64,000 nt of DNA, taken from NCBI RefSeq assembly GCF_964340395.1, contig NC_135566.1, forward strand, positions 19,343,297-19,407,296, in the 5' to 3' direction. Shown here in pieces: positions 1 to 38,035 of the stretch (positions are counted from its first letter, which is position 1; every line of letters starts with the position of its first letter). Source of the stretch: Glandiceps talaboti (taxonomy: Eukaryota; Hemichordata; Enteropneusta; Spengelidae). The notes below the pieces were generated by a model. It was not told where the DNA came from. It did no database searches and worked only from the letters and a program-made list of their open reading frames with translations. Position numbers and translations under genes: made by a program.

Positions 1-558
1 CTATCTGGAGTTAATGTGCCGCGTTTGTGGAAAACACATTGGTGGCAATTCCACGAAAGCTATTGTGTATGATTCCGAGTTGAGCAAATTATATAACATC
101 AAGATAAGTTCCGATGATAAACAGGTGAGTGAGTCCAACTTATATCTTATGTGACTCAGGTTACAATATGATTAAAATCTTATGCATAAGGGCATGCATG
201 ATTATTATTATAATTATATAATATTTAATTTCAGGTTCACCCAACAAAGCTTTGCAAGGCATGCACCTCTCGACTGCAGAGATGTAGGCGGTCGTCAAGC
301 TTTCAACCAATGCCAGTTGAGGTGTTTGTCTTTACCCCTCATTCCATCGAAGATTGTGCTATTTGCATCACTGGTGAATCTTTACAACTTTCAGGTACAA
401 CAAGGAAAAGGGGGCGCCCACCCAAAAGGAAAAGTGGGGGCACTCAGGGAGGGCCAGGCCGAGGACACAAGACAACAAAGAGACCTGATGACAACAGTAA
501 TGAACCTTCGACAAGTTCAGGTGCTGGAAAGACAATTGACACAACGAACTGTACTGAA

Positions 559-590
<32 letters not shown>

Positions 591-2335
591 GATAATAGAT
601 ACTGATATTACCAGTATAGCTGTAGAGAGATTTATAGAAAGAGACATTGCTGAACACTATGTCTGTTCAATCTGTCAGGGTGTGCCAAAGGTTGCACGAA
701 TATCCCCATGTCAGCACGTATTCTGTGAAGGTTGTATTGTGCATTGGTGTCAAAATTCAGGAGCTTGTCCCACTTGTCGGGAGGTGCTTGAAATTGATGA
801 TATTGACAATTTGACTGGAAGTTCTTTGAACATGTATGACTCTCTAAAACTTCATTGTGTTTTTGATTACCTTGGATGTGATTGTACTTTAACATTGTCT
901 AATCATGTTGATCATGAATCAAAGTGTAAATTCAAAGGTAAAGGTGTCCGTTCAACGTATGGTCAGAAAAGGGTGAAGCAGCCATTAAGAACAGCAAATA
1001 GGCAGTATTGTAAACAAAAACGATTGAAACCCTGTTTTGATTTCATCACTAATTTCTGTTCTGAATACTCAGAAAGAAAAGAAGATGTTTTGTTTTCCTT
1101 ACTGAGATCAGTTCTCAATGACTCCGGAGATAGGGAAAGGGCAAACAAAATTGACGAGGTGTGGGCAAACACCTTCAGCATGATGACTCCCGGTGAGTGT
1201 TGAAGAATGTCTGGCTCACTAGTGCAGTTGGTAAAACACTGGAAGAAATTGAACCAGATATAAAGTTAAATCTTGAAGCCCTGGGGGTTAGCGATACAGA
1301 CATAGTCTTGCAAACCTTTGTGAAAGATGGATCAGATGGGATGGGAGATGTTGAAATTTATCGTAGAAAAGGTGAAAGGACTCTCCCAGGGAATGCATTT
1401 AGGTCTGCATTTGCAGTTGTCAAATGTGAAATAGAAATTGACGGTAAGGTGTCTACTGTGTATGAACAGAAAAATCCAAATTCTGTAAGGTGCAACAGAT
1501 CACACATAGAAGCACTCACTGAAGAGAACTGTAGATCATCAGTTTCATATTGTCTTTTGCCAATGGAAGGAGAGAAATCTCTAATGAAAGATAAAATTAT
1601 GAAAATTCATTGTGGTAATTACTGGCGAAATCACTACTTGGTGTTTTTGACATCTATGGTTGATGAGAAACTTGACCGAAGTAGTGGGGGGGGGGGGGGT
1701 GTTACAGGGAGTGGGGTCAAGTTATCAGTGTACTTTGTGCGATTGTTCTCAAGAGGAGGCTGTGTCTAAATTGTGAACAGAACACTTTTTGACACTTGTA
1801 AATTAGCAGAATATGAATCCACAGAAAGTTTCACAAAGTGCACTGATCGTGAAGTCCAAAGGTGTTAAATCATAGACAGTGGAGGGAGACTCCCTATGGT
1901 TAAATGTCAACCATTGTTAATTCAGAGCCTGTTGATCGAGGAATTGATGCAACTCATGCAAATATTAATCTAGCTTCTTTCTTTAGAAAATTATTAATCA
2001 GAGAAATTGCTGAGTTTACCCAGTGGGAGAAAACAGCTGATATTAAATCTATTCTAGATTCTTCAGAAAAGAAATTAGATGAACACCTGAAAGCCACAAT
2101 AGGTATAAATCCTAGTCTTATGTTGCCGGGTAATTACGCTAGGGTATTTTTTGATGAAAAAATGAAGTATCTATTCTCTCCCATATACCAAATGTACATA
2201 GAAGGCAAATTTTCTCATCTGTTTTATGCAAATTTAGATTCATAAGAAAGTTGTACAATGCAAAAAAGACCACAAAGTGATTTTCAAGGTGACCTTGTGA
2301 ATTTGAAACAGATGGGAATTCAATTGGGCAGACTA
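1..2335 (+). pseudogene. RAG1L: RAG1-like (RAG1L) transposase/recombinase relic
   Basis: Remains of a RAG1-like recombinase, the DNA-cleaving subunit of RAG-type transposons and of V(D)J recombinase. The window opens inside the gene. Positions 2-124 encode a zinc motif (MCRVCGKH) and end in a CAG|GTGAGT donor. A 110-bp intron (125-234) leads to an exon starting VHPTKLCKAC. In order follow a basic GRP-core AT-hook-like patch (about 400-435), an Asp run (GAT repeats, about 560-588), a C3HC4 RING finger (CSIC...CPTC, 664-777), a C2H2-like zinc segment (about 850-930) and a nonamer-binding-like basic domain (about 940-1180). The catalytic core reads KDGSDGMGD (first Asp near 1335) and VDEKL (second Asp near 1662), then the YQCTLCD zinc motif (1723-1743) and DATHANINLASFF (about 1940-1980), all matching vertebrate RAG1 blocks. 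The frame changes near 1195 (with loss of roughly 130 residues), at the G-run 1685-1699, near 1771 and near 1866, and a TAA lies at 2243. It cannot make a full protein as read. Confidence 0.9.
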
Positions 2336-2339
2336 TTTA

Positions 2340-2424
2340 AAGGGCGACCTTCCCTGTATGACAGTCCCCCAACATATCATAGCAGATGGTTAAAGAACCA
2401 GGTAAATATGTTGCAGAGTGAAAT
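2340..2424 (-). repeat. Displaced copy of a RAG2L Kelch segment
   Basis: About 85 bp nearly identical to 3308-3387, in the same orientation, apart from a 4-bp difference and a few substitutions. At 3308-3387 the minus strand reads as a Kelch blade (AICYVGGLSYREGRP). Here the extra 4 bp destroy that frame. The segment is read on + as the last residues of the broken RAG1L frame, which makes that frame look longer than the RAG1L homology really is. It is probably a local duplication or a fold-back rearrangement during decay of the element. Confidence 0.75.
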
Positions 2425-2734
2425 GATAAGAACAGGAATGTACAGTACAGGGTATAGTATATAGGCCTAGATAGATAGATATCTATATTTACTGTATCAG
2501 TTGTTTGCTTGTTTGTTAGTTTTTTTGTGTGTTTGTTTGTTTTGAACTAGTTTCCTACACTCTCTGTGGTTCATGTTGTGTAATTTTGTATAAATAACAA
2601 CATAACAATGACATTTTAATTATATGTACAATGACATTTCATCATAATGTAAACGGTATATTTTACAGGAAATATCAATCAGTAATGTATTTTTTTAAAC
2701 AATATGTTTTCAATGTAAACTCAAAATTGTATAC
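2425..2734. other. AT-rich spacer between RAG1L and RAG2L
   Basis: No coding potential is visible. The stretch is AT-rich with short GATA and TTTG runs. It separates the 3' ends of the convergent RAG1L (+) and RAG2L (-) relics, so it probably derives from their 3' untranslated regions. Confidence 0.5.
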
Positions 2735-3700
2735 TGATTATTTCTTCTTGAAGGCGCTCTAGCAGATTTACATATATCACAAATGAATTTTCCCCTCGTT
2801 ACAACTTCCAGTCCTACACAGAACTGATGAAGCCACCTACTGCACCTTCCTTCACACTGAATCCACGCAATAGGGGACATTTCTTGGGTATCCTTAAATT
2901 TACACTTCTCCTTCAGATCACATGGAGCTAGATACATAGGTTTTGGGGTGAAAACAAACATACTCTTTTTGGTTCCCCCAAACCCCAAGATACTTGAATT
3001 ATCTAAAGGAATGAGGGATAGACCTGCACTTGCTAAATTAGATGGAGCTTTATACAAATCAAGTGTTCTTCTGATAGGGTCTAGGATAAACATAGCCGGA
3101 GATGGCTGAGGACTATCTTCATTGTCTTGTACTAATTAGTTCTCCTGGTTGTAGCCCCATACACTATTATTTTGTCTTTAAATAAAATGGAGCTGTGCAC
3201 TGATAAATGGTGAGGCGATGACAGGGGCACACAAATGGTCTGTAGAGTACACTGATGACTTGAATTAACTGTAAAAAATGTTGCCTCATTAACTGGGTGC
3301 CTCTTCTAAGGACGACCTTCCCTGTATGACAGTCCCCCAACATAGCAGATGGCTGAAGCACCAGATAAATATGTTGCAGAGTGAAATGCATGTGGCTCAA
3401 ATTTAGGTGCCTCCAATTTCTTCCATGTTAATGAGTCAGTGTTCAAGATATAAAATTTTCCATCGATGGTGTCCTGTGTAAAATTTGGCACTCTGTGAAA
3501 GCGGCCTTACATTTCTGCTCCGACAAACAAAATGGCAGTATTCTCCCCTGGTACTTGGGTGAGAGTGAAGCCACATCTCCCACTTGGAACTTCTCCATTT
3601 TGATGCAGTTCTTCTTCAATGTGGAAACTGTGATCATACTTACCTTTGTATATGGTGCAATCTGCGGTTTTGCCCTTTACATCAATGGTGATGGCTTCAT
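2735..3700 (-). pseudogene. RAG2L: RAG2-like (RAG2L) Kelch + PHD relic
   Basis: Remains of a RAG2-like protein, the Kelch-propeller partner of RAG1. Read on -, about 3700-3507 gives a Kelch stretch (PSGRCGFTLTQVPGENTAI), 3491-3306 another (FYILNTDSLTWKKLEAP and AICYVGGLSYREG), and about 3230-3130 a third (SSILFKDKIIVYGATT). 3093-2735 gives SILGFGG followed by a C4HC3 PHD-type finger. With residue 1 taken as the Met codon at 3093-3091, the zinc ligands are Cys58, Cys64, Cys80, Cys84, His89, Cys92, Cys105 and Cys108. The blocks lie in different frames with stops between them, and the N-terminal propeller is lost where a LINE fragment joins at about 3700. The tail-to-tail orientation to RAG1L is that of ProtoRAG elements and of vertebrate RAG loci. 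Retention of the PHD is like echinoderm RAG2L and unlike amphioxus. Confidence 0.85.
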
Positions 3701-4095
3701 CATCATCATCATCATTAATTAAAGTCGATTTCTTCCCCGTGGCGGGGGGGGGGGGGGGGGGGGGGGGGGTGTCACCGACTGTCCTTCTTTCCATGTGGCA
3801 ATCACATTCCTCCATTTCTGCCTGTTCCCATAGTCATTGATGTTTAATCCAATCTGTTTACATTGTCCTTCCACCATACTCTTCCATGTCAGCTTTGGTC
3901 GCCCTCTCCCTCTTTTTTCCATCCACCTCCAGATTCCATGCCCTCTTCACTCCTTCTCTCTCATCTTACCTCAGCACATGTCCACACCATCTCAGACAGC
4001 TATGCCTTGCTACCTCTACAATTGACTCACATAGACCTAGCCGTTCCATTATAGCATCTCTGAGCCAACCCTGTCACTCAATTTGACACCACATA
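3697..4095 (-). mobile_element. 5'-truncated non-LTR retrotransposon (LINE) 3' end
   Basis: On - this reads as the C-terminal tail of a LINE reverse transcriptase protein: LRWCGHVLR (about 4000-3970), then KRGRGRPKLTWKSMVE and NRQKWRNVIATW (3922-3780). This pattern is typical of RTE/BovB-like and related ORF2 ends. A C-run (3747-3769, G on +) and a tail of ATG/GAT trinucleotides (3703-3719) follow, and such simple-repeat tails are common at LINE 3' ends. RAG2L sequence resumes immediately after the tail, so the element landed inside RAG2L. There is one in-frame stop after the GHVLR motif. It is dead and truncated. Confidence 0.8.
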
Positions 4096-5100
4096 TCTTT
4101 CACTGGTACAAAATAGAGTGAACAGATCATACCCTTCCCGTATTAGGAATTTTGTTGTTGAAATATCTAGTATCTCACCAGCATGAAGCGTTGATATTTT
4201 GGCACCTTTGAAAGTCATTTTTCTGACAAAATTTGATTGTCAGCTTTCTTCATAGATTGTCAGGCATTTTAATACAGAACTTTGTAGGAAAACATTCACG
4301 CAATTAGTGGGTGTATAAAAGAACAAACCATATGTGATCTGACTGTAGAAATGAGTACACTATATAATTAAATAAACACATCTGGTTTTAGATCATTCAT
4401 ACTGAAAATATTTATGGCAATTCTCTTTCAGCTCCTTGATTGCTTTCCATTGTACCTTCTAGTAATGTACCTACATTTACTTTTAAATTTGTCATTGTAA
4501 AACTCGGATGACTGCACATTTCATGAAATTTGTACTTTTAACTGTTGCATTTATACGACACATAATTAGCATGTTTTTTCAGTAATATGCATACAATCTG
4601 ACTATTCCGCTATCATCACTACATGATGTGTGTGTGTGTACTATTTTGCAACCTGCTTTTGTTTTCGTTTTCTTTCAATGTGCAATGCCATGATGTATAT
4701 ACAATTTACAAATGCAAATTAGCACTGTGTTTATATTGAATATAGAAGTTCCAAAATTATGATTAAACAAATCTAAATAGAAAATAACTATTGATGTATT
4801 TTATGTTTTTATGTATGTATGTATGTATGTATATATGTATGTATGTATGTATGTATGCATGCATGCATGCATGCATGCATGCATGCATGCATGTATGTAT
4901 GTATGTATGTATGTATGTATGTATGTATCTTCGTACGTACACGTACGTACATACACATGTTGATTGTATTGTATGTGTGCATATCTATCCTGGGTATGTA
5001 TGTGTATTCGAATTCGTGGTTGCTCAGGTAACAACTGTTCTGAAAGGATAAATGTGGAAACAGTACCATGTAAGAAAAAAAAACAAGTTAACTGGGTAAT
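4096..5100. other. Intergenic AT-rich DNA
   Basis: No gene is recognised. The stretch holds a compound microsatellite (4811-4928, listed separately) and otherwise unremarkable AT-rich DNA. The far (right) end of the RAG-like element should lie within or before this stretch if it survives, but no terminal repeat can be identified because the matching left end is outside the window. Confidence 0.6.
4811..4928. repeat. Compound ATGT/ATGC tetranucleotide microsatellite
   Basis: Runs of GTAT units flank a central block of GCAT units. The open reading frames here (Met-Tyr-Val-Cys, or His-Thr-Tyr-Ile on the other strand) are artefacts of the repeat. Confidence 0.95.
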
Positions 5101-17700: not shown

Positions 17701-20700
17701 ATTTGGCAGAATGGATGAGGAAGATTTTAGCGGAGTTATGTTCATGTCTGTTCTACTTGAAACTTGTGGATTTGACTGTCAGCGATGCCTGTCAAGTGCT
17801 ACTCATAGGAAGTGATGTGACTTACTAGTCTTGAGTTGTTGTTATGCCATATACCAAGTTTCACTAGTAACAAAATATGTATATAAATGTCCCGTGTGAA
17901 ACACAGGCTATTTTCTAGTGTTAAAGATTTAGGATATTTGTTAAAACTTATGATGTTGAGTAACAACAATTATCAGGAAAAGGAAGCCATTGACCTGACA
18001 ACATCATCTAGTTCTTATAGATCATTTGATAACACAAGTACTTCATATACATCATCTAGTTCTTATGATAGATCATTTGATAACACAAGTACTTCATATA
18101 TACAATACCTCCACAGTTAATAAATTGAGACATTCTAAAAACTATTCAATAAATTCGTCCTTGATAATTCACCCAGATTACTCGGAGACAAATTAACAAG
18201 ACTAAGTATATATAATCTAATATGATGTAAGTTTGTTTCAATAACTGAATGTGTTATCTCCTGAAAAAGTCAGCAATTCTATCCTAGACAGCTCATCAAA
18301 ATCAGAGATTATATGAAATATAATCCAATCCAATCTAATCTAATCCAATCTAATCTAATCTGATCTAATCTTAGTTTCAAAATCAACTAATGTATTATGT
18401 ATAAGAGGTACCTGTACTGAATTAAACAGTTCAAGTGTCTCTTACAATTATATGCAATTTGAAAGTATTCACAAAAATTATCATATACTTTCAACATTAT
18501 TCACATTTATTGGATATGTAAGATAGCCATTTTTTCACACCTAATTGTCATTACCACAACTTGTACTAATGAGTATCTTAAAATATCTGTACTAATTACA
18601 TAACTAAATTGTTGACTAATACCAGTAGATATGTTTATATATTAAAAGTAATATTCATGAGGAGGGAAGCTGAGGGTACTAAGGTTTTTACATATTTGTT
18701 TGTAATGTCCTCAGTGTCCAACATATTGTGAGGGATTTGGTATTTCATTGTGGATAAAGTTGGTAGCAGCTGTTTTGTCTGAATGTCATGAAACAGATTT
18801 CAGGCCTGGGCTCCACATTAGCAGTAGTCTAGGACACACTTAGACTACTAAACATTGCAAATAGACTATCAAATTATAAGGTGGTGGTCTGAATAGAAGA
18901 ATGGAAATCAATAGAAAATTGTAGGTGAAACAGTTCACTTGGCTAAAGCTGACTACCCCAGTCTTGAAGTTAAATTAGAGCCCTGCAAAATCTAAAATAT
19001 AACATTTACAAAACTAAAAGTTCACGCAAAAAAATAAAAAATTAGTGTGGTTTGCAAAATAGAAATTGTGCAAACAGAAGTCAATATTTTTTTTGAAAAA
19101 TGAAAACCTAAATTACAGTTATTCAATAGAGATTTGTTTGATTATTTAGACCATTACCTTGACCACTGAAAATAAGCAACTCTTTACAACTTTTCATTTT
19201 TTCATTTTCATTTTAATAAACAGATCTACAATGTATGAGTATGGACATAACTAAATAAGTTTATAATTATCACATTGAAAATCTTTTCTTCTTCAGTTAT
19301 ATAAACATAAATAGATATAAAATGTTTACCAGTGCTATCAATTTCCTGTAATACCTAGGGAAAGGTGTTTGATAATGGGTTTTAAAATGCACAAAGCATA
19401 CACAGACCCTTCTAGAAAAACACATGAATAATTATGAAGGGGACCCCATCTAATAGAATACTGAAATGTATGTACATAGCATACATAATGAATATTCCGG
19501 ACGATTTATGTATAAAATACGACCATTTTTTCAAGATTGATAGCCTGAAAGCTGTTCTCAATGTACCTTTAATCTAAAGAATACCAAAGGTCAACTCCAA
19601 TAATGATATGAGGACATCAGTTTTCATCAATACATACAGAAAACACTAAATTTGTACTAAACACTTACCAGAGATGATCAAAGCTTCATTGGGTCCTGCT
19701 ATATGGATGTTACCCATCTTTTTGACAATGTTTACAAAGCTTATATCCAAACTAATGTTTTCTAAAATATAGGAAAAACCTGAATTCTGCAATTATCTTT
19801 CCATATTTTGCCATGGTCTAGACAAATGCCAGGGAAAACAGCCACCTAGCTGACGACAATGATCACATGATCTACCAGTGAATCTGATTTTCGTTGGTGG
19901 ACTATACCACTATGTCTGAAGGGGGCATTGCCATACGTCATGCATATAAATATCTATGTAAACAGAATTTTTGAAAAAGTTTAACATGTTTCAACATGTT
20001 TGCTATAGAATTTATGAGAAAGTAACAAATTTGACTTTCTGGACTGACAATTACCAATGTCTGTCAAACTATTCTAATTATGGAGTAGACTGAAATAAAA
20101 GTACATGTTGTTACGCACGTACGATTGCCCTTTTTTCATTATGTACAGTATGACATTTGAGACTTTCAAAAAGCTTCTAAAAGTGACATTTTTCAAGTTT
20201 CATTATGAAAAACTTGACAGAATGAGAGGGTTCACTGAATTGTAATTTAAATTTACTTTCCGGCCAGAACATGAAAATAATACAAGTTCCTTTCACTGTT
20301 GTAAACAAACAAAAACATCAGGTGAAAAAAATTTACCGAAAGTCTCACAGTTGGCAACAATGTGATTACCATGGCTTCTGGAAAACTTGCATTCCTTTTA
20401 TTTCACATTTTCATACTCATCATCTCATGCAAAAATATTATTTTCAGGGTTGTTAATATTTTTTTTGGGGGGGCAGCATATCTAAATATTAAACATTTCA
20501 AATGTTGTGTATGGCAATGTACAATGTATGAATTATTTTGTTGATACATAATGTGTGGAAAATGCATGTAAATTATATTGCTACCATGCATAAAATACAT
20601 GTACTTTCAAACTGACTGAACAAATTACTGATAAAGTAAATCAAAATGTACAAAATTTCACCACAGTTGGGTTTATTTAAATTTTGGATTGACTTTTTCT

Positions 20701-35700: not shown

Positions 35701-38035
35701 ATGAGGTCATGTTGAAGAAAGGCAAATCTTAAAAGCAAACAACTCTCAAAATGCAACTTTCAAGGTCATGGCATGCTTGTCTTTCTCTTTTTCCAGAATT
35801 CAACCATGACAGTGCAGTGATGCATGCAGACATCATAGACATGTTTAGAGTTTAACGTGTTCTTCAGAAAGCAGAAAAAACTTGCGACTGGTTTTGTTAG
35901 GGTGTGATCAACAATTAGATAACTTAGTGGGTGGACATGACATTCACACCTGACATGTAGACCAAAGAAAGAGTATGCTTTGATGACATAAAATAAACTA
36001 TAACTTAGTTTACCTGCCACTACAATAGCTTCATTTGGTCCAGATATTTTACAACAACAGCAGTCACAATCACAACACATGATTTAGCAATATTACAACT
36101 CCAACTTCTGATAAGACGATCACCTGTTATCGAATGTATGTATGGCTGTATGTACTAATCCAAGACATTATAGAATTTACATATTCCCATTAGTTATCAA
36201 AATGTTAATATTTAACTCATGTCAGGTAATTTGTTTAACTATTGAACTTACTGCAGTTTGTATCACCCTGATAACTTTTTAACAATTTCAAACTTCTGTA
36301 TAACACTCAAAGTTCTACAATGTATGAATATAGATTTTGATGAATATTAAAGAAATACAGTTTTCAATTTTTTTCTTTTAACTATGCCTATATTTGCCAG
36401 GTAATGTTTACTGTATGGCATGTCAACATAGCATAGCATACAGAGTGTGACTCATACCTTCCATTCTATGACACAACAACAATAGGTCAACCTGACCCTC
36501 CAGGCCATGTGACTTTCACATGACTGCCACAGAAAAACATGCACTATGTACGCAACAATTAGCTGGAATGCTCTTTCTGTGACAATACACGGTCAGAAAT
36601 TTCAATTCTTATTCCACTGCAGACTATTTTGTACTAAACTGTTACAGTTCTATAAAAATAAAAACATAACCAATAAAATTCTGCATTCTTCACATTTTCA
36701 AAACTATTTTCCTGAACACCTCTTTTTTCTCCAGTGTGAGTGCAATTTCTTCTATTTGTTAATACCATGACACAATGGCGGTTCATAGATATCAGAACCA
36801 ACCAATGAATTTTCTTAAGACACTGCATTATATTTTCTACCCTTATTGTATTATTTTGTTAACATTGCATAATTAGTATTTTTTATTTGAGGGAGGGGGT
36901 TATATTTTTTAGAACAAACATAAAAGTAGTCATTTTATTATTTCACTTCTCACATTACCATGATAAAGTCTGATTACTAATTTGATTTAAGTCAAAAACA
37001 AACATAAACATGACATATTAATGATAACATTTCTTTTGTTTGATCTTTACACTATATACTAATTATCAAATACATCTATATTTTATATCCAAACTTTCTC
37101 TAGGGCAAAATTTATGGGATAAAATTTGTTTTCACAAATGAAATGTAATTATCTCCTCAAAAATGAACTCCTATTGCAGACCGAACGCCATGATGGAAAA
37201 ACCGAGTGTTTAGCCTGTTAGTAATAATCATTGACATGATTGAATGATATATTTCCATGTGACCAGTCTGACGATCCGTATTTGGGTCACACACACCCTA
37301 TCACGGTATTTTCCTTACTTCACTACAAAACAATCCAAATTGACTTGACAATAATAACAGCTTCGAATATCATAACCGCATTTTCGACATTGTTATTTAG
37401 AAATTAATATTGATCGATGATTTTTAAAAATGCTTTGTTCCAATTTTACAAATTACATACATCTGTTATGTCGACTGTCCCGTTTGAGAAACTGGAATAT
37501 TTTCATTTGCGTAGTTCGCGTTACGTTCAAGTGTTTTGTGTCCACACAATCCTGTTAGATATGGAATTCTTGGGGATTCTGGTCAACAAAGATCATATTA
37601 AATGCATTCCATTTTTTCAATTCACAAAAGTAACATTATATAATATATTAGTTTTACCACGAATAAGCGTCAAAAGAACGTTACACGGAAGGAATCTAGC
37701 TGGGGAATCTGGGAGTGGGAAACCCTACTACACTAAACGTTCACAATCTTACCCTTTACTTCGCGAACTGTCAGTTGTATTTTGAACATCGCAAAACACT
37801 TTTTCACAGATATAACAAGGGCTCATATTTCGAAATAAGCAGTACAACGCCCACACGTAAATGAAATACTACGTAGGTACGAGTTTACGTGTAGTAGTAC
37901 AGTAGAGCGAGGTAGCGAAAGGGGTTGTCATGTATTAACTAATCTGCTCAATTTTCAACCAAATCCGAGGTCAAAAAGCCACTCACCGGAGACCACCAAC
38001 GCTTCATTGGGTCCGACGGTATGACAATTTCCCAT
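8730..38035 (-). CDS. FLOT2: Flotillin-2, complete, canonical first exon
   Basis: Membrane-microdomain scaffold of the SPFH/prohibitin family, which hetero-oligomerises with flotillin-1 at the plasma membrane and endosomes. Coding exons in transcript order: 38035-37987, 14692-14396, 13510-13278, 12639-12520, 11649-11435, 10847-10664, 9820-9674 and 8762-8730. They sum to 1278 nt, giving 425 aa plus TAG (human FLOT2 is 428 aa). All junctions are GT-AG and in phase. The start MGNCHTVGPNEALVVSG is identical to the human N-terminus as known for the family, with the Gly2 myristoylation site and Cys4, and exon 2 supplies Cys19/Cys20 (GGCCG). The SPFH domain runs over exons 2-3, with FTIKDVYDRVDYL holding the Tyr160/Tyr163 region. 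Exons 4-6 encode the Glu/Ala-rich flotillin coiled coil (EAEAERM-type repeats). The C-terminus ends VLKKVPGAKA. Intron 1 is about 23 kb and contains three alternative first exons. Confidence 0.96.
14314..14372. mobile_element. Short MITE with TAGTCTAG termini
   Basis: This 59-bp element contains TAGTCTAGTTCC at one end and GGAACTAGACTA at the other. It is flanked by an 11-bp direct repeat ATGATGACATA (14303-14313 and 14373-14383). Its interior (ACCGTGTTCCGATTTTA) matches the larger hairpin element at 41141-41258, of which it looks like a deletion derivative. Confidence 0.75.
14735..15008 (-). mobile_element. tRNA-derived SINE, full length
   Basis: On - it begins with a tRNA-Ser/Leu-like head. 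The A box TGGCCGAGTGG lies at 14998-14988 and the B box GGTTTGAACCC near 14955-14945. A body follows containing CGGTTACTCCGGTTTCC and ATGAGGGATGGCTCTC, and it ends in AATAAAGATTATTATTA. It sits in flotillin-2 intron 1, about 40 bp from exon 2, in the same orientation as the gene. The head is not scored as a working tRNA because it is fused to the SINE body. Confidence 0.8.
15550..16264 (+). mobile_element. LINE 3' fragment (ORF2 C-terminus)
   Basis: 15672-15914 reads NDELNIHERAVQTAQRIIGT and LPSLQSIFHSR, then KDASHPAHTHLLNCYPL. FYPSVIHILN follows near 15940. This is the typical C-terminal end of a non-LTR retrotransposon ORF2. A 3' UTR ends in a TTATTATTA-type tail near 16260. The same family is present at 40227-40870. 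It is degenerate and inactive. Confidence 0.75.
16759..16848 (-). mobile_element. MITE, TAGTCT family
   Basis: On - it starts TAGTCTAGTCCCTATATGG and ends near GGCATCCAGACTATAA. The flanking 9-mers GTGGGTCAC (16750-16758) and GTGGGTAAC (16849-16857) are a near-perfect target duplication. Same family as 30258-30324 and 47521-47598. Confidence 0.75.
17432..17855. repeat. Diverged tandem duplication of about 230 bp
   Basis: 17432-17650 and 17665-17855 share GGGGG-tract, TTTGGCAGAATGGA, CTGTCAAG(C/T)(A/G)CTACTCATA and TTATGCCATAT blocks in the same order. Both lie in flotillin-2 intron 1. Confidence 0.7.
18000..18099. repeat. Two tandem copies of a roughly 50-bp unit
   Basis: The unit ACATCATCTAGTTCTTATxx..GATCATTTGATAACACAAGT is repeated twice. 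It creates a Ser/Thr-rich open frame (17887-18120) that shows no other sign of being a gene. Confidence 0.85.
19669..19717 (-). CDS. FLOT2: Flotillin-2 alternative first exon 1d (MGNIHIAGPNEALIIS)
   Basis: Reads ATG GGT AAC ATC CAT ATA GCA GGA CCC AAT GAA on -, giving MGNIHIAGPNEALIIS plus the first base of a Gly codon, then a GTAAG donor. Its length (49 nt) and exit phase equal those of the canonical first exon, so it would splice in frame to exon 2 at 14692. It keeps Gly2 for myristoylation and the GPNEAL core, but position 4 is Ile in place of Cys, so the Cys4 palmitoylation site is lost. It lies about 5 kb upstream of exon 2, the nearest of the four first exons. No transcript evidence is available here. 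Confidence 0.85.
25707..25852. mobile_element. Hairpin MITE with arms of about 60 bp
   Basis: TTATTCTCCAATATTTTTCT at the left pairs with AGAAAAATATTGGGGAATAA at the right. Pairing continues inward through TTCAGTC, GGTCAC/GTGACC-type blocks and GTCACTACACG/CGTAGTGAC to a loop of about 10 bases near 25780. It is essentially one long imperfect palindrome, intronic in flotillin-2. Confidence 0.8.
28107..28181. repeat. (TGG)n trinucleotide microsatellite
   Basis: About 25 uninterrupted TGG units in flotillin-2 intron 1. No gene frame uses it. Confidence 0.95.
29002..29090. repeat. Three-copy minisatellite, about 35-bp unit
   Basis: Units contain GGTAACA(A/G)(A/G)(A/G)GGGGGAGGGAGTC and are adjacent. 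The third is cut short. It overlaps a dispersed repeat whose relatives lie near 53140 and 56300. Confidence 0.7.
30258..30324 (+). mobile_element. MITE, TAGTCT family
   Basis: Starts TAGTCTAGTTCCTATATGGT and ends GGCATCCAGACTA. It is flanked by ACATTCTCA (30249-30257) and ACATTCTCT (30325-30333), a 9-bp target duplication with one mismatch. Confidence 0.8.
31424..31458 (-). mobile_element. Shortened MITE, TAGTCT family
   Basis: Ends in GGGAACTAGACTA and is flanked by AGTGAAGGT (31415-31423) and AGTGAAAGC (31459-31467). An internally deleted copy of the family. Confidence 0.55.
34882..34948 (-). CDS. FLOT2: Flotillin-2 alternative first exon 1c (Cys-rich)
   Basis: On - it encodes MCCECDCCCIKIS, then GPNEALVVA and the first base of a Gly codon, followed by a GTAAAC donor. 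At 67 nt it leaves the same phase as the canonical first exon and would join exon 2 at 14692. Six of the first nine residues are Cys. The Gly2 myristoylation signal is absent, so the anchor would have to rely on cysteine acylation, or the cysteines may bind metal. It is the proximal member of a tandem-duplicated pair with exon 1b. Confidence 0.85.
36014..36080 (-). CDS. FLOT2: Flotillin-2 alternative first exon 1b (Cys-rich)
   Basis: On - it encodes MCCDCDCCCCKIS, then GPNEAIVVA and the first base of a Gly codon, with a GTAAAC donor. It is the same 67-nt length and phase as exon 1c, from which it differs by three conservative or near-conservative residues (Asp/Glu, Cys/Ile, Ile/Leu). Seven of the first ten residues are Cys. 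The amino-acid pattern is preserved although the surrounding duplicated DNA has diverged, which argues that the exon is under selection. Confidence 0.85.
37987..38035 (-). CDS. FLOT2: Flotillin-2 canonical first coding exon 1a
   Basis: Encodes MGNCHTVGPNEALVVS plus the first base of the Gly17 codon and ends at a GTGAGT donor. Gly2 (myristoylation) and Cys4 (palmitoylation) are the known anchor sites of flotillin-2. It lies just downstream of a CpG-containing promoter-like stretch, and is the farthest of the four first exons from exon 2. Confidence 0.93.

Follow-up and report, generated by a model that had tools for sequence, protein, structure and literature searches.

The enzyme behind the shuffling of antibody genes stems from a jumping gene of the RAGL kind, and the locus at the start of the 64,000-nucleotide stretch analysed here (the window, positions 19343297-19407296 of contig C19, in a genome of 590 Mb and 47 contigs) raises the question of whether its RAG-like (RAGL) sequence is the relic of such an element, something the host had taken into use, or a neighbourhood of unrelated genes. 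We put the probability at roughly 0.95 that it is a fossil cut-and-paste DNA transposon with a RAG1-like (RAG1L) and a RAG2-like (RAG2L) gene, of a subfamily shared with Ptychodera flava. Pieces of the DNA were read in six frames and compared with Pfam profiles, a database of solved structures and a protein database, and a tree was built; the reference for structure-database matches is 6b40, the solved amphioxus RAG1L/RAG2L, and that for RAG1L is P0002, a P. flava RAG1-like protein of 975 residues whose name comes from NCBI/UniRef. Negative coordinates are bases 5′ of the window, L007 is the upstream stretch adjoining it, and C1, C4 (C4a and C4b), C12, C15 and C18 are other contigs or loci of the same genome with RAGL copies.

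Long coding pieces lie on the + strand in the first 2.3 kb of the window and on the - strand at 2.7-4.2 kb; RAG1L (+) and RAG2L (-) are convergent, tail to tail. An earlier note on this DNA had placed the two genes in this order within bases 1-3700; the order stands, whereas the interval was too narrow, RAG1L starting at -37 and RAG2L, split by an insert, reaching to about 4222. The features of the element are:

To 124 (ATG at -37, L007:9863), + strand: RAG1L exon 1 with the N-terminal CRVCG zinc motif, 55% identical to P0002 residues 1-53.
125..234, + strand: RAG1L intron, GT...AG, 110 bp, predicted from the sequence and the P0002 alignment.
235..1203, + strand: RAG1L exon 2, with the HPTKLCKAC motif, linker, RING and nonamer-binding domain (NBD)-like region; the frame is open to TGA at 1201-1203, beyond the deletion junction.
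664..780, + strand: RING finger (ZDD), Pfam PF13639 at 4.9e-8.
973..1200, + strand: NBD-like region, matching 6b40 RAG1L residues 9-85 at 3.4e-13.
1201..1217, + strand: internal-deletion junction and frame change; P0002 residues 389-497 are missing.
1218..1685, + strand: RAG1L catalytic region (P0002 498-655), with DGMGD at 1335-1349 and VDEKL at 1659-1673, from Pfam, 6b40 and the P0002 alignment.
1686..2335, + strand: decayed RAG1L, to about P0002 residue 869, with CTLCD at 1729-1743, a poly-G frameshift, three stops and four further frameshifts.
2333..2425, no strand assigned: filler of about 90 bp, duplicated from RAG2L of this same element; the donor lies at about 3301-3388 and is 88% identical to it over 86 bp.
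2745..3701, - strand: RAG2L with Kelch repeats and PHD (PHD at 2767-2874); stops at 3509, 3308 and 3138, frameshift at 3158.
3702..4098, - strand: insert of about 400 bp splitting RAG2L, with a C-terminal reverse-transcriptase-like frame and an (ATC)n tail, found from the sequence and copy comparison; putatively LINE-like.
4099..4222, - strand: upstream RAG2L blade, homologous to C1; the homology ends at 4222.

That the + strand carries RAG1-like domains, as the earlier note had it, is borne out, well above chance, by the comparisons. The RAG1 profile PF12940 matches above cut-off at 1197-1769 (3.4e-10) and below it on a later piece, 1904-2245 (0.0034); it was found in this genome and in none of 14 control genomes. 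The best structure-database match of the DGMGD-VDEKL piece is the amphioxus RAG1L of 6b40 (E=9.3e-40), as is that of the exon-2 piece through the NBD-like part (3.4e-13). In a frame-aware alignment the window RAG1L is 60% identical to P0002 over 758 aligned residues, spanning residues 1-892 with the last 20 or so lying on filler, and the cysteines and histidine of its RING align with those of P0002. A further candidate reading, that 2246-2335 is non-RAG sequence, was ruled out; the C1 copy and the P0002 alignment identify it as frameshifted RAG1L.

The - strand is identified less directly. Its PHD is above cut-off with PF23011 (4.6e-7) and below it with PF00628; the Kelch profiles are all below cut-off, and the PHD-side piece matches the solved RAG2L weakly (E=0.031). 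The strand is, however, 89% identical to the C1 copy in one 183-residue stretch, and against a C1-based reference with a C15 tail the identity is 85% over 319 residues; because the C1 copy in turn matches the amphioxus RAG2L of 6b40 (2.6e-34), it is identified as RAG2L, in keeping with what had been proposed.

Where the RAG1L belongs was sought with the C15 copy, for which the protein search gave 13 matches; the top two, P. flava RAG1-like proteins P0002 (74%) and P0003 (69%), are also the only matches listed under a name that includes the species. A tree of 19 rows unites C15, the window copy, C1, P0002 and P0003 in one clade with support 100/100 and sets C12 apart, with C1 filling 17% of the columns and the mouse row on a long branch of unsure placement; it does not assign the window copy to RAGL_A, B or C. 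The window copy is closer to the RAGL of hemichordates than it is to ProtoRAG proper. P0002 likewise has the N-terminal zinc motif, RING, NBD and core, although it is full-length while the window copy is without 109 residues and the C-terminus. This qualifies the earlier designation as ProtoRAG-type: the gene pair is convergent, as in amphioxus, but its RAG2L has a PHD, which that of ProtoRAG lacks (PMC7204232). The RING, too, distinguishes it from echinoderm RAG1L, described as RING-less (PMC7204232, PMC4411706), and is had in common with mollusc RAG1L; molluscs have RAGL with both RING and PHD (PMC7204232). Going by the tree, the host would be a hemichordate, probably an acorn worm, although horizontal transfer of the element could also account for the grouping.

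These data also bear on whether the + strand might hold a Transib or a RING protein of no RAG kinship, with a likewise unrelated Kelch/PHD gene as its neighbour, which the earlier note had named as findings that would overturn its reading. The RING and PHD pieces do match many unrelated chains as well; against this stand the matches to the RAG1 core and to RAG2L, the clade with P. flava RAG1L and the joint recurrence of both genes at C15, C12 and C1. A Transib has one transposase gene, no RING and no RAG2L, whereas this element has both RING and RAG2L. We therefore regard a Transib or unrelated genes as next to inconceivable here, and the relic of a RAGL transposon remains the preferred reading.

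In the intact element, RAG1L would have been the transposase, with heptamer recognition and a DDE active site, and RAG2L its Kelch/PHD cofactor; the two together would cleave at terminal repeats whose first bases are CAC, and then reinsert the element. The window copy is incapable of this now, the NBD-to-core region, the C-terminal part of RAG1L and the 3′ end all being lost. The earlier note was right to call the copy broken. In the alignment to P0002 there are no disabling changes from -16 to 1200; at 1201, P0002 residues 389-497 (109 residues) are deleted with a change of frame; 1218-1685 is again undamaged; and eight disabling changes follow 1685, a poly-G frameshift at 1686, stops at 1774, 1804 and 1873, and frameshifts at 1906, 1920, 2156 and 2263. 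RAG1L homology ends near P0002 residue 869, at window position 2335, where the filler (2333-2425) replaces about 650 bp kept in C1, that is, the RAG1L C-terminus and intergenic DNA; we infer that it stems from double-strand break repair with template switching. RAG2L has four disabling changes from 3701 to 2745 and none from 4227 to 4101, counted on the C1-based reference (five against the C15 reference, which itself has a missing stretch and frame breaks of its own). This makes 12 in total, besides the deletion-associated one, as against the intact open reading frames, free of terminal repeats, that mark domesticated RAG1L/RAG2L. The copy is a relic and not an active element because its DDE set is incomplete, the C-terminal part of RAG1L being gone; the catalytic residues are presumably D600, D708 and E962, the third acidic residue falling within the lost part.

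The distribution of this damage raises another possibility, namely that the 376-codon N-terminal frame (zinc motif, RING and NBD, no catalytic core, own ATG and splice sites) has been retained, either to repress RAGL elements or as an exapted host gene. A retained truncated RAG1L would bind element ends or ubiquitinate a partner, and truncated transposases that repress their parent elements offer an analogy. Over the 1107 bp of this frame that could be aligned, none of the 12 disabling changes occurs (binomial 0.008), its RING cysteines and histidine are those that align with P0002, and a neutral simulation puts the chance of its escaping damage at P=0.009 for 3% divergence per lineage and 0.00025 for 5.8%, at rates taken from C1 versus C19 (6.1% substitutions and nine frameshifting indels in about 1500 sites). 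At 1.5% divergence, however, P is 0.086; C1, the source of the rate, is without that region; the adjoining 468 bp, not translatable with the frame, are just as clean; and the clustering is owed to one 650-bp stretch (8 of the 12 changes, P=0.0005), without which P is 0.12. Because the neutral-decay test, strong alone, is weakened under this clustering comparison, we consider retention unlikely.

A protein of similar make-up exists in P. flava: P0015, a RAG1-like protein of 406 residues, combines RING and NBD but, like the window frame, has no DGMGD-VDEKL core; it was the sole match of a search with that frame (54% identical over 79% of it). Its boundaries (P0002 74-451) differ from those of the window frame. 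Two open frames elsewhere in the genome combine a RAG1-type N-terminal zinc motif and RING with a different C-terminus: one of 386 residues at L053:185-1345 (C4:6849284), 32% identical to the N-terminal part of P0002, and one of 411 residues at L054:36-1271 (C20:13360662), 26% identical to it. Judged by their sequences, they resemble the N-RAG-TP/Chapaev type described in the literature and would bear on the origin of the RAG1 N-terminus.

The reading of the locus as a dead transposon gains from its relatives in the genome. Seven RAGL loci were found including the window copy, and both genes occur together again at C15, C12 and C1; the other six loci are:

C15 copy: 680-codon stop-free frame with the RAG1L core (L008:8733-9998, L009); the N-terminal part is gone up to about residue 333, and its RAG2L has two frameshifts.
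C12 copy: RAG1L broken by two stops and four frameshifts, accompanied by RAG2L.
C1 copy: C-terminal end of RAG1L, with a RAG2L that is broken.
Two C4 loci: segmental duplicates; RAG2L parts, with a RAG1L trace in one.
C18 copy: 3′ end with the first 18 or so RAG2L residues.

None of the seven is whole, so that the intact copy the earlier note wished to see sought did not appear in genome searches scoring the best candidates; more fragments may exist. One search scored 47 out of 130 candidates and listed 38 matches; among the matches listed, a clear match past residue 388 was had in C15, C12, C1 and C19 only. At the point of N-terminal loss the C15 core is joined to other sequence (L008:8733-9998, L009), which on the - strand presumably represents a TatD-type protein. 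Open reading frames also lie near the truncation points of C1 (L012:6202-6621) and C4b (L026:5886-6781), of what we take to be the ZMYM/QRICH1 type (Crypton-derived) from their appearance. The C4 duplication (L024/L025, L026/L027) covers 5.4 kb at 98.7%, the adjoining RAG2L part being just 92-94% identical.

The number of copies speaks against a host-domesticated RAG1L-RAG2L pair that was recently lost here, a scenario with precedent in the domesticated RAGL genes of sea urchins (PMC9885083). Several copies at different sites, two of these sites with the same precise end, and a nearest copy that is 6% diverged and on a different contig make it very improbable, more so than retention of the N-terminal frame. 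A mobile element is the better account.

Its ends can be seen in the relatives. A block of 134 bp in C1 has counterparts at both C4 loci and at C18; the homology between C4 and C18 runs as far as CACTATG, beyond which the flanks are unrelated, and C1 has CACATTG at the expected end position. C4a and C4b being one duplication, this amounts to three independent sites (C4, C18, C1), two of them with CACTATG (C4, C18), and the evidence for a CAC-type terminus is from the 3′ end alone. CACTATG is identical to the TR1 heptamer of ProtoRAG (PMC8289069, PMC7481187). After it, at 43, 37 and 37 bp in C4a, C4b and C18, stands the 9-mer CAAGATGGC, also kept in C1, which is the reverse complement of the YY1-binding TR5, GCCATCTTG; chance occurrence in one such block is about 0.001 by mononucleotide shuffling. 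In ProtoRAG, TR5 lies 27/31 bp from the heptamer and is written in sense in the literature, whereas here it is inverted and at 37-43 bp, and TR5 is called lancelet-specific in PMC7481187. The 9-mer could just as well represent a YY1 site belonging to the promoter of RAG2L. That the conserved block 5′ of RAG2L is a promoter alone was ruled out by its sharp common end, which is the element terminus; it may be both.

A whole-genome search with the end pattern gave two exact matches (both C4) and one with a single mismatch, against one match in the control. The third of these matches, at C12:492407 (L057, C12:492250-492600), is a CACTATG terminus with 18 of its 19 first bases in common with the C4b end, possibly a 5′ end; the 12-mer AAAATCCAAGAT occurs at offset 38 in the C4b, C18 and C1 ends and at offset 22 in this terminus. 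Separately, a sequence at L013:844-885 starts right at the C1 element end, and a 36-base part of it is found exactly at many genome places.

Some results do count against a transposon at the window locus. The extension upstream that the earlier note had proposed yielded neither terminal repeat nor target duplication: the paired-end scan for the copy's own terminal inverted repeats and target-site duplication did not rise above shuffled flanks, a weak test as the 3′ end is lost, and the 9.9 kb upstream of the copy hold no CACTATG on the + strand, nor CACTATG-like starts. Further, the RAG2L query had no match at 1e-3 in a large protein database. Among the relatives, no target duplication was found in the stretches examined at the C4, C1 and C18 ends. 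The best scores of the repeat scan in the C19, C12 and C15 flanks were inside the shuffled range. The genes, their order and the damage are observed directly; because its own repeats and target duplication were not found, arrival of the window copy by transposition is deduced from the ends that the family has at other loci of this genome.

As to the surroundings, flotillin-2 exons lie on the - strand at about 9665-38035 (matched with a flotillin-2 query), the last matched one 5.4 kb from the relic, so that the neighbour was named correctly; one exon matches SPFH/Band 7 (3.9e-9) in Pfam, and another has a Flot match below cut-off. First-exon candidates are 37985-38035 (100% over 17 residues to the human protein) and 19661-19717 (68% over 19). 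One more feature adjoins the element:

4223..4811, no strand assigned: repeat of about 600 bp, with a second direct copy 5′ of the relic at L007:6299-6907, 93% identical.

These direct repeats bracket the relic, and the copy at 4223 starts where RAG2L homology to C1 ends; as far as shown, the repeat would lie outside the RAGL element.

RAG1L-RAG2L pairs, intact or broken, are on record from echinoderms, lancelets, molluscs, a nemertean and cnidarians; P. flava, too, has RAGL elements on record (PMC4411706, PMC7204232, PMC9435367). Sea urchin, starfish and oyster have broken, truncated pairs too, one inside a host-gene intron (PMC4411706, PMC7204232), but the present relic keeps an unbroken 5′ part of RAG1L. 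What is new is therefore another copy set of an already known kind, and a literature search for RAGL in hemichordates gave no work that could be tied to this genome. It would add one more set of dead RAGL elements in hemichordates, which helps to date their death in that lineage. If the host is a hemichordate, the 3′ ends make this the second deuterostome lineage in which the ProtoRAG heptamer occurs. Should the N-terminal frame be in use after all, it would represent the RING-NBD part of RAG1 outliving the recombinase. Finally, the conserved TR5/YY1 9-mer near the end, contrary to the lancelet-specific TR5 of PMC7481187, allows the age of YY1-RAGL control to be tested; control of such ends by YY1 may be older than lancelets.

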